A program made the position numbers and the translations under genes. From Pseudidiomarina indica (GTDB lineage Bacteria > Pseudomonadota > Gammaproteobacteria > Enterobacterales > Alteromonadaceae), in NCBI RefSeq assembly GCF_900104245.1, contig NZ_FMXN01000001.1, positions 248,001 through 312,000 on the forward strand: 64,000 nt of DNA, read 5' to 3'. Positions 58,198-61,382 of the stretch are shown piece by piece. The notes under the pieces were generated by a model. It had not been told where the DNA came from. It made no database searches and worked only from the letters and a program-made list of their open reading frames with translations. Each line of letters opens with the position of its first letter. The stretch's first letter is position 1.

Positions 58198-59799
58198 ATG
58201 GAACAAAATTCAGATTATCAATGTGATGTGCTTATCATTGGAAGCGGCGCAGCCGGTTTAACCTTGGCTTTACAATTAGCAGATCACGCACAAGTCATGG
58301 TGCTTTCCAAAGGTCCATTGACCGAAGGGTCAACCTATTATGCACAAGGTGGCATCGCTGCTGTTTTCGATGAAAATGATAGCATTGAAAGCCATATTGA
58401 AGATACTCTCATTGCCGGTGCGGGGTTATGTGATCTCGCGGCCGTACAATTCACCACCGAACATGCAAAAGAAAGTTTGCAATGGCTCATTGATATTGGC
58501 GTTGGCTTCGATCGCATTGACGACGAGCATTTTCACTTAAATCGTGAAGGCGGCCACAGTCATCGGCGTATTCTACACGCCGCCGACGCCACCGGCCGTG
58601 CCGTGCAAACCACCTTGGTTGAGCAAACGCGACAGCATCCTAATATCACCATTCTCGAGCAAGTCACCGCTGTTGACTTAATTACAGAGAAACATGTGGC
58701 CGGCGCACCACGCTGCTACGGTGCCTATATTTTTAATCGCCGGACCCAGCAGGTAGAAACCGTTGCCGCTCGTTTTGTCGCCTTGTGTACGGGCGGCGCT
58801 AGCAAGGTCTATCAATATACTAGCAATCCCGATGTGGCAAGTGGGGATGGCATTGCCATGGCATGGCGTGCAGGCTGTGCGGTCGCCAATATGGAATTCA
58901 ATCAATTCCACCCAACTTGCTTATTTCACCCGAATGCCCAGTCATTCTTGCTCACCGAAGCCTTGCGAGGCGAAGGGGCAGTATTAAAACGCCCCGATGG
59001 CACACGGTTTATGCCAGACTTTCATCCGGCCGCAGAATTAGCCCCGCGTGATGTCGTGGCGCGCGCTATTGATTATGAAATGAAACGTCTTGGTGCGGAT
59101 TGCATGTACTTAGACATTTCGCACAAGCCGGAATCCTTTATTCGTGAACATTTCCCGAATATCTACGAACGCTGCTTAAGTCTCGGCATTGATATCAGCC
59201 GTGAACCCATGCCAGTGGTTCCTGCTGCCCATTATACCTGCGGCGGAGTGCAAACCGATTTACGTGCTCGCACCGCTGTGAATCATCTATACGCGATTGG
59301 CGAAGTGGCCTATACCGGCTTACATGGCGCCAATCGCATGGCCAGTAATTCCTTGCTGGAGTGTCTGGTGTTTGCGCGTGCCGCGGCCACCGACATCCTT
59401 GCCCAACTCGACCACGTTGAACTACAACCTCGCCTGCCGCGCTGGGATGACAGTCAAGTCAGCGATTCCGATGAAGAAGTGATTATTCAGCACAACTGGC
59501 ACGAATTGCGGTTATTTATGTGGGACTATGTTGGCATTGTCCGCACCAATAAGCGGTTAGAGCGTGCACTAAGACGCATCGAGCTTTTACAGCAAGAAAT
59601 TCACGAATATTACAGTCATTGCAAAATCAGCAATAACTTGCTGGAACTGCGGAATTTAGTGCAAGTGGCGGAATTAATCGTGAGATGTGCCATGGCGCGG
59701 AAAGAAAGCCGTGGGTTGCACTACAACCTTGATTACCCTGATCTAGCCGCTGATCCGCAACCGACCATACTGACGCCAGCGCAGCAACCACCGCGCTAA
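58198..59799 (+). CDS. nadB: L-aspartate oxidase
   Basis: FAD enzyme for the first step of de novo NAD synthesis (aspartate to iminoaspartate). The 533-residue product has the FAD-binding [46 protein letters not shown] and [10 protein letters not shown]; the C-terminal helical domain is intact. The frame opens at 58081, but the ATG at 58198 ([12 protein letters not shown]) gives the normal length. Its last 57 bp overlap a convergent gene. Confidence 0.97.
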
Positions 59800-60039
59800 T
59801 CGTCGGTACTGGCCGTCCCCTAGCCAGCTGCGCGGCAACCAGAGCCAGCGGCGCGGCTGGCCGGCGCGCTCTAACATGACTAGAGCGCCCCATGGAGTCA
59901 CCCAAGATAACGGATGAACCTGCCAAGTCAGTTGGTCAAAATCCGTTAACTGCACCCACCGCCCTTGGTGGGTGTCAATGCCCCATAACTGGTTGGGTTG
60001 CCGCAGCCAGGGCCAAGGACAAACCACCAGTTGCCACAT
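59743..60039 (-). CDS. Short YgfX-like protein, membrane segments missing
   Basis: A 98-residue Trp- and Leu-rich protein 3 bp after sdhE. Its C-terminal part ([20 protein letters not shown] and [24 protein letters not shown]) can be aligned by eye with the C-terminal domain of YgfX (CptA), which normally follows sdhE (ygfY). E. coli YgfX has 135 residues and starts with two membrane helices; here the N-terminus begins [20 protein letters not shown] and has no room for them. It may be a reduced form, or a degraded remnant. Its 3' end overlaps nadB by 57 bp in the opposite direction. Confidence 0.65.
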
Positions 60040-60042
60040 TAG

Positions 60043-60315
60043 TTATACTTTCACCCGGCTTAAAATAAAGGCCACCATGTCAGCGAGTTCTTTATCGTCG
60101 CAAACTTCGTGCCCCATAAACCAAGCAAAGAGATCCGGATCATCACACGTCAACAGCCGCCGAAACACATCTTGTTGGGGTTCTGTTAGCTCATCGTATG
60201 CTTCCTCAACAAACGGCATAAAGAGTACGTCTAACTCCAACATGCCACGACGACACGCCCAGCGCAGGCGATTTTTATTTCTTAATGAGTCAGCATCTTG
60301 TTGCAACTTTTCCAT
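60043..60315 (-). CDS. sdhE: FAD assembly factor SdhE
   Basis: Helps covalent attachment of FAD to succinate dehydrogenase SdhA. The 90-residue, mainly helical product has the diagnostic RRGMLELD (RGxxE motif, about residues 23-30) and ends with ELADMVAFILSRVKV. Ribosome site AAGGGA lies 6 nt before the ATG. Followed by the ygfX-like gene; ygfZ is divergent, as in E. coli. Confidence 0.95.
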   Translation of the reverse strand: MEKLQQDADSLRNKNRLRWACRRGMLELDVLFMPFVEEAYDELTEPQQDVFRRLLTCDDPDLFAWFMGHEVCDDKELADMVAFILSRVKV

Positions 60316-60391: not shown

Positions 60392-60437
60392 AACTATCCC
60401 CATCTATTCGAATATCGATGACAAAATGAGGTTTCAA

Positions 60438-61382
60438 GTGTTAACAACAGAGTTTACCAAAGCCCAGCCTGAATACGTATCGGTTTCCTTGGATGATTAC
60501 GCAGTCATCACTTTAACAGGCCCGCAAACTGACCAATTTTTGCAAGGCCAGCTCTCCTGTGACATGAAGGAATTAACGTCACAAGCCTGGTTGTACGCAG
60601 CTCACTGCGATAACAAGGGGAAAGCGCTGAGTACGTTATTCGTCGCTCGCTGGGGCGATAAAGTCGTTTTAATTAATCATAAAGACGCGATTGCCGCCAG
60701 TTTGGCACAGTTACAAAAATTTGGCGTGTTTAGCCAAACAGAAATTGTTGACGCAACAGCCCAATGGCAATTATACGGGGTTTTTGGAACCCAAGCGCAG
60801 GCCAAGTTGACCGAATTATTGCAGCAACCGTTGAATGAAAGCACGCCACAAGCGGTGACAGCAACTGCAACTGACCTTGTGTTGCAGGTCGGCACAGCCC
60901 CTGCTCAATTCATTCTTATCAGTGCGCCAAATCGGCTGCCAACTTCTGCCTCACCAGAAGTTTGGCAGGCGCTTGAAATTGAACGTGGTCGACCCACCCT
61001 AGTTTCAGGTACACTAGAAGAATATGTCCCTCAAATGCTAAACGTCCAAGCCTTGGACGGAATTAGCTTTACGAAGGGGTGTTATATTGGCCAAGAGACT
61101 ATTGCCCGAATGAAATATTTGGGCAGACAAAAACGTGCACTATTTCGTTTACGAGGCCAAGGACAGCCTGTTCAAGCGGGAACCACCATTGAACAGCAAC
61201 TTGGCGACAACTGGCGACGTGCCGGTACGGTAATTAATGCAGTGAGCCGTGCTGAAAATCAGCTGGATCTGTTAGCAGTGCTGCCGAGCGATATTGACGC
61301 AGATACTAAGTTAAGAGTGAAAGACGATGACGCGAGTCTTTTGGAAATTTACCCACTGCCCTACACACTGGATGAAACATGA
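60438..61382 (+). CDS. ygfZ: tRNA-modifying protein YgfZ (folate-binding, Fe-S cluster repair)
   Basis: Folate-dependent factor that maintains Fe-S enzymes such as MiaB. The 314-residue product belongs to the GcvT-like family and has the diagnostic KGCYIGQE (213-220) with the essential Cys215. The frame opens at ATG 60426, but GAGG at 60428-60431 sits exactly 6 nt before the in-frame GTG at 60438, which I take as the start. It overlaps the following slyD-like gene as ATGA. Confidence 0.93.
   Translation: MLTTEFTKAQPEYVSVSLDDYAVITLTGPQTDQFLQGQLSCDMKELTSQAWLYAAHCDNKGKALSTLFVARWGDKVVLINHKDAIAASLAQLQKFGVFSQTEIVDATAQWQLYGVFGTQAQAKLTELLQQPLNESTPQAVTATATDLVLQVGTAPAQFILISAPNRLPTSASPEVWQALEIERGRPTLVSGTLEEYVPQMLNVQALDGISFTKGCYIGQETIARMKYLGRQKRALFRLRGQGQPVQAGTTIEQQLGDNWRRAGTVINAVSRAENQLDLLAVLPSDIDADTKLRVKDDDASLLEIYPLPYTLDET

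Follow-up and report, generated by a model that had tools for sequence, protein, structure and literature searches.

A YgfX protein without its membrane hairpin is conserved and under purifying selection in Pseudidiomarina and Idiomarina

RESULTS

A short ygfX gene between sdhE and nadB

The gene directly behind sdhE in Pseudidiomarina and Idiomarina encodes a YgfX protein that lacks the two-helix membrane hairpin of its family, and its reading frame is conserved and under purifying selection. Judging from sequence comparison, we think it fairly probable that the hairpin disappeared in an ancestor shared by the two genera and that the hairpin-less protein still works beside SdhE. YgfX of Escherichia coli has about 135 residues; the protein encoded in the DNA stretch analyzed here (64,000 nucleotides, called the window) has 98. 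The features of the locus, by window position, are as follows.

59743 to 60039, minus strand: ygfX, hairpin-less form, 98 codons plus stop (open reading frame list, PF07254, conservation, pN/pS, and family profile)
60043 to 60315, minus strand: sdhE (Sdh5 family), upstream of ygfX (PF03937, 93.8 bits)
58201 to 59799, plus strand: nadB, presumably the L-aspartate oxidase gene (family match), convergent with ygfX, start chosen by eye (FAD_binding_2, 343.4 bits; Succ_DH_flav_C, 60 bits)
60426 to 61382, plus strand: open reading frame that we take to be ygfZ, divergent from sdhE (open reading frame list); its relatives were used for the YgfZ tree
60022 to 60036, minus strand: codons of predicted strand 1 (residues 2 to 6; AlphaFold2, mean pLDDT of 87 for residues 1 to 10), which we take to have been retained ahead of the hairpin site
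59992 to 60021, minus strand: codons of residues 7 to 16, which by the models lie where full-length relatives would carry the two helices
59749 to 59817, minus strand: codons of the predicted C-terminal helix (residues 75 to 97; AlphaFold2), mostly inside the nadB overlap
59743 to 59799, no strand assigned: convergent overlap of ygfX and nadB, 57 nucleotides, codon boundaries aligned (open reading frame coordinates and overlap comparison)

The start codon of ygfX is an ATG three nucleotides past the sdhE stop codon. Because a single sense codon separates this ATG from the in-frame stop of sdhE (the open frame has 99 codons), no earlier start is possible, and a longer form starting inside sdhE is ruled out for the window. 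The overlap with nadB holds 18 sense codons of ygfX and its stop codon; the other 80 codons lie outside. These coordinates agree with the first-pass annotation, which had described a YgfX-like frame of 98 residues between the sdhE stop and its own stop, overlapping nadB by 57 bp, with its last 19 codons opposite the nadB end.

Homology to the cytoplasmic domain of YgfX

Residues 5 to 87 of the window protein align to positions 48 to 131 of the Pfam model for CptA/YgfX (PF07254, Cpta_toxin; 133 positions) with 27.1 bits, close to the cutoff of 27.3. In a whole-genome PF07254 search, the window frame with its neighbors reached 27.5 bits, above the cutoff, and no second match was found in the genome at an E value of 0.001. 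Searched against Pfam at an E value of 1, the window protein matched PF07254 and, at chance level, Avr2 (E = 0.18), and nothing else. The bacterial PH family with two membrane helices, bPH_2, gave no match at this threshold, although the two may be distantly related. No NCBIfam match up to an E value of 1 was found for the window protein, the full-length protein of Aliidiomarina indica, or the protein of Aliidiomarina sanyensis.

Profile comparisons were clearer. With hhalign, a profile of 28 hairpin-less proteins, 13 of which reach an E value of 0.1 for PF07254 individually, aligned to one of 21 full-length proteins over 71 columns (E = 1.3e-11). A profile built from 80 full-length proteins of the family (73 distinct) scored 36.1 bits against the window protein and recovered 52 of 61 hairpin-less proteins at an E value of 0.01, compared with 0 of 122 reversed or shuffled decoys. 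By group, it recovered 21 of 25 proteins from Pseudidiomarina, 15 of 19 from Idiomarina, the single one of A. sanyensis, 6 of 6 from a Colwellia-like genus, and 9 of 10 from a small-genome genus; the nine that missed the threshold include four each from Pseudidiomarina and Idiomarina. Sequence identity to the window protein falls to 21% between species. The window protein thus resembles YgfX/CptA in its place directly downstream of sdhE and in its cytoplasmic domain, but it lacks the hairpin. By place and domain, we class the window gene as a hairpin-less orthologue of ygfX; we do not grant it full membership in the membrane-bound family, since the two helices were looked for and are not there.

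Absence of the hairpin

The part of the PF07254 profile that holds the two helices is unmatched in the window protein, where the match begins only at profile position 48, and the highest Kyte-Doolittle mean over 19 residues is 0.66; the first-pass annotation had likewise described a protein without membrane helices. Hydropathy over the whole protein was dropped as a criterion for the hairpin in relatives: a middle segment, which by its position in the profile belongs to the domain and not to the hairpin, scores 1.86 in Idiomarina and 1.68 in P. atlantica. Because of this segment, which could still touch a membrane in these proteins, we used the highest 19-residue hydropathy in the part before the last 62 residues. 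This value is at most 1.44 in all 61 hairpin-less proteins and at least 1.6 in 77 of the 80 full-length ones.

Distribution of the short form

The sample of Pseudidiomarina comprised 26 genomes, 25 of which match the window SdhE; the remaining one is 77% complete. In all 25, the interval between sdhE and nadB is 241 to 277 nucleotides long and holds an open YgfX-like frame of 93 to 103 residues, and none carries a full-length ygfX behind sdhE. Where measured in named records of this genus, ygfX overlaps nadB by 27 to 57 nucleotides, including the stop codon. All 19 Idiomarina genomes have an interval of 225 to 295 nucleotides and a short hairpin-less frame, of 81 to 91 residues except for one of 117 (in L143 the frame was picked by hand, the longest frame being another gene). 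Counting both genera, the short gene immediately follows sdhE in 44 of 44 genomes. In three Idiomarina genomes (L153, L154, and L155), the usual ygfX start position carries none of the codons ATG, GTG, and TTG; the GTG of L151 is replaced there by GCG or ACG, followed by CTG. The frames of these three are open and conserved. In Idiomarina xiamenensis (L145/L079), ygfX overlaps nadB by 109 nucleotides, far beyond its relatives.

The intervals are long in Aliidiomarina, at 390 to 571 nucleotides in 15 of 17 genomes; that of A. sanyensis measures 334 nucleotides, and in one genome the nadB end was not parsed. Sixteen of the 17 retain a hydrophobic segment (mean over 19 residues of 1.59 to 2.75), the exception being A. 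sanyensis (L160/L082). The YgfX of this single genome has 106 residues, lacks the hairpin, and is nested among full-length relatives; it probably represents a separate loss. Among 32 further genera of the family, each represented by one genome and taken from those with an sdhE position among the matches listed, a hydrophobic segment (at least 1.59) is found in the longest frame behind sdhE in 31; a crude C-terminal motif was missing from 10 of the 32, whose frames are assigned to YgfX on position and length only. In total, 36 of the 52 genera in the family sample were read.

Hairpin-less YgfX also occurs in all six genomes of the Colwellia-like genus (g26; L217 to L222, L120), and a strongly hydrophobic hairpin is missing behind sdhE in all 10 genomes of the small-genome genus (g7; L207 to L216). 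In the latter, L209 has a putative YgfX frame of 190 residues with no YgfX profile match at an E value of 0.01, and L211 and L212 still have a mildly hydrophobic stretch. As judged from sequence, the hairpin is thus absent from at least three groups beyond Idiomarina and Pseudidiomarina. A class-wide search for other short forms gave matches in 213 of 369 genomes, and the open frames among the matches listed have at least 131 residues, a search that weak short matches could escape.

Number of losses

In a NadB tree of 78 rows (of 80; L092 and L104 were left out since no nadB was parsed), the 29 rows with a short interval lie on one side of a branch with an SH-aLRT support of 99, and in a YgfZ tree, the 29 short-interval rows are likewise set apart by a branch with a support of 98. 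When A. sanyensis and one Colwellia-like row were added to the NadB tree, three changes were needed. A 96-row YgfZ tree that includes every hairpin-less group requires a minimum of six changes, four of which are forced by branches with support of at least 95; two of the six come from a split of the small-genome genus into two places and from L220 (Colwellia-like), which stands beside a full-length relative. These were quick trees without bootstraps, the YgfZ tree was drawn with midpoint rooting and came with long-branch warnings, and the changes count as losses on the assumption that the hairpin is never regained. Read in this way, the hairpin probably disappeared on several occasions, in distinct marine bacterial lineages. 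As to a single loss in the ancestor of Idiomarina and Pseudidiomarina, the available text of a published phylogeny places the two genera as sisters in the core-genome tree, which its authors prefer, and Aliidiomarina and Pseudidiomarina as sisters in the 16S tree (PMC6193092); the 16S topology would ask for two losses.

Predicted structure of YgfX with and without the hairpin

As modeled by AlphaFold2 (mean pLDDT of 84.5), the window protein has six strands (residues 2 to 6, 17 to 22, 27 to 31, 36 to 48, 51 to 58, and 61 to 69) and a helix (75 to 97), and no N-terminal helix of four or more residues. The model of the full-length A. indica YgfX (L083; mean pLDDT of 88.3), which shares the place between sdhE and nadB, starts with a two-residue strand (5 to 6), followed by two helices (13 to 35 and 39 to 55) that the window protein lacks; after them, strands and a C-terminal helix are predicted in the same order as in the window model.

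The best match of the window model among solved folds is the Ran-binding domain of RanBP3 (Z = 8.4, rmsd of 3.2, 90 aligned residues), and the other rows listed have Z values of 6.3 to 7.8. From their titles, we take these matches to be PH, PTB, EVH1, Ran-binding, or FERM-F3 domains. The PH superfold is a seven-stranded barrel capped by a C-terminal helix. The predicted fold of the window protein resembles PH-superfold proteins such as RanBP3, Osh3, and Akt, but sequence identity is 2 to 11% in the rows listed. With Foldseek, neither model had a match below 0.001 (best E value for the window model, 0.07), and no relative of solved structure was found by profile search (five rows, all with E values of at least 0.8). 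With Z values as middling as these, a PH-like fold of the YgfX domain is no more than likely.

For the full-length model, PH domains are among the best rows (Z of at most 4.6, tied with unrelated chains). They span residues 1 or 2 to 145 to 149 with about 90 residues aligned, the pattern that an insertion of the helices would produce. The two models suggest that the hairpin is inserted between strands 1 and 2 of a PH-like domain, and we infer that it was lost by internal excision. The Colwellia-like proteins match the full-length profile in two pieces (12 to 27-39 and 76-80 to 151-155), skipping most of the leucine-rich consensus in between. The first piece is weak (7.9 to 12.0 bits), and its opening residues are encoded within sdhE in a different frame, so that some of the N-terminal similarity comes from the conserved end of sdhE. 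In the window protein, strand 1 is encoded outside sdhE. The proteins of Pseudidiomarina, Idiomarina, and A. sanyensis match the second piece only.

Purifying selection and the overlap with nadB

Raw pN/pS ratios were calculated for 22 pairs from the part of ygfX outside the nadB overlap; synonymous sites are saturated in several of these pairs, an effect that inflates raw ratios rather than lowering them. The ratio lies between 0.07 and 0.59 in 21 of the 22 pairs. The close pair L020/L021 has two nonsynonymous changes and no synonymous one, and for the close pairs L018/L020 and L014/L015, the intervals include 1. Pooled over seven pairs each with no shared sequence, pN/pS is 0.29 in Pseudidiomarina and 0.27 in Idiomarina. 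For the window sequence paired with P. indica, it is 0.26 (0.15 to 0.41), compared with 1.35 and 2.09 in the shifted frames, and in the shifted-frame control as a whole (L020/L021 left out), 36 of 42 ratios exceed 1 (range, 0.69 to 4.65). SdhE is more constrained (0.00 to 0.09 in 20 pairs, 0.26 in one, and undefined in one). In the Colwellia-like genus, ygfX has ratios of 0.25 to 0.33 (three pairs), and in the small-genome genus, 0.06 to 0.31 (five pairs).

Within the overlap, compared in 10 pairs, differences were counted at 19 of 135 codons, including stops, in the YgfX tail and at 31 of 125 in the NadB tail. The idea of the first-pass annotation that nadB constrains ygfX is therefore not supported; since the NadB tail changes more, the pinning is, if anything, the reverse. 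In the window (59746 to 59799) and the other loci compared, the antisense overlap is codon aligned, and NadB tails rich in Pro, Gln, and Ala face YgfX helices rich in Trp, Arg, and Leu; the overlap itself may create this link in composition.

DISCUSSION

The first-pass annotation had left two readings side by side, a soluble, reduced YgfX working with SdhE and a gene in decay. The reduced protein is borne out as a selected and conserved one. The step from selection to a function linked to SdhE is one that we infer, and it yields the reading proposed at the outset. After loss of the hairpin, an N-terminal strand and the cytoplasmic domain, a predicted PH-like barrel closed by the C-terminal helix, would be left over. 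Translated directly after SdhE, the protein would act with it as an adaptor, in the cytoplasm or bound peripherally to the membrane, in the flavinylation or assembly of succinate dehydrogenase. If YgfX still acts in this way, the cytoplasmic domain would be its working part and the hairpin a dispensable tether, absent from some lineages. Two adjacent PF01127 (Sdh_cyt) genes are still present in the Pseudidiomarina genome, and the SdhE motif RRGM(L/V)ELD is kept in 12 of 12 aligned proteins. The YgfX family is known, and the hairpin-less variant appears to be new: among the matches listed from the open-access literature, none described it in its title or the start of its abstract, and no paper was found with both "Idiomarina" and "ygfX."

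A possible refinement of this reading, to which we give distinctly less than even weight, is that the protein is not soluble and that a Trp- and Arg-rich loop, together with the C-terminal helix, binds the membrane surface in place of the hairpin. Of the 98 residues in the window protein, 13 are Trp and 13 are Arg, the domain contains on average 10.5% Trp in Pseudidiomarina and 9.3% in Idiomarina versus 5.3% in Aliidiomarina, and the net charge per 100 residues is +7.3 in each of the first two genera versus +4.0 in the third; a PH-like fold would also suit such a role. However, the composition of the C-terminal helix is biased by the nadB codons on the opposite strand. In addition, Idiomarina proteins lack a Trp- and Arg-rich C-terminal helix, the Colwellia-like proteins have few Trp, and one event per genus pair is not an independent test. 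Compensation for a lost anchor by Trp and Arg was rejected as a general rule, as it does not extend across the hairpin-less groups.

It is rather unlikely, but not far-fetched, that the fold is kept and selected for a new job unrelated to SdhE or succinate dehydrogenase. Published accounts of YgfX function disagree. In Enterobacteriaceae, YgfX interacts with SdhE, according to the available text of a paper citing McNeil 2013 (PMC5042078). A study of Shewanella, as far as its available text goes, reports no contact of YgfX with YgfY/SdhE, FtsZ, or MreB in two-hybrid tests, normal growth of a ygfX deletion strain, and slower growth of E. coli with unchanged cell shape upon overexpression of YgfX or YgfY; inhibition of FtsZ and MreB by the type IV toxin CptA, countered by CptB/SdhE, is described there as claimed for E. 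coli and Acinetobacter and as not reproduced for Shewanella YgfX (PMC8621075). The missing contact with YgfY in Shewanella and the rapid divergence of the hairpin-less forms would fit a new job, but the unbroken place of ygfX directly behind sdhE in both genera argues against it.

That ygfX is a decaying remnant whose frame stays open through chance and the nadB overlap is very improbable. A Pfam score at the cutoff, the strong divergence between species, and the three Idiomarina genes without a usual start codon are what decay might produce, but the frame is uninterrupted in every one of the 44 genomes, both pooled pN/pS ratios are low while most shifted-frame ratios exceed 1, 80 codons lie outside the overlap, and inside it the NadB tail changes more than that of YgfX. 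A truncation by sequencing or assembly error, in favor of which nothing was found, can be set aside, as 25 Pseudidiomarina genomes agree.

Returning to hairpin-less YgfX as a partner of SdhE, the membrane anchor seems not to be the essential part of the protein. A broader proposal, which we put forward tentatively and at slightly less than even confidence, is that YgfX is a PH-like SdhE adaptor whose hairpin, an insertion into the loop that joins strand 1 to strand 2, was excised on four or more occasions within a single family of Alteromonas relatives; an integral membrane protein would thus have become a soluble or surface-bound one with its job kept. The Pfam title files YgfX as the membrane-bound toxin of a type IV toxin-antitoxin pair, a label that would then miss the functional core. 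Natural proteins that lack the hairpin, are under selection, and probably arose several times point to the part of YgfX that matters, and they offer small domains for structural, binding, and complementation tests that are hard to perform with a membrane protein.
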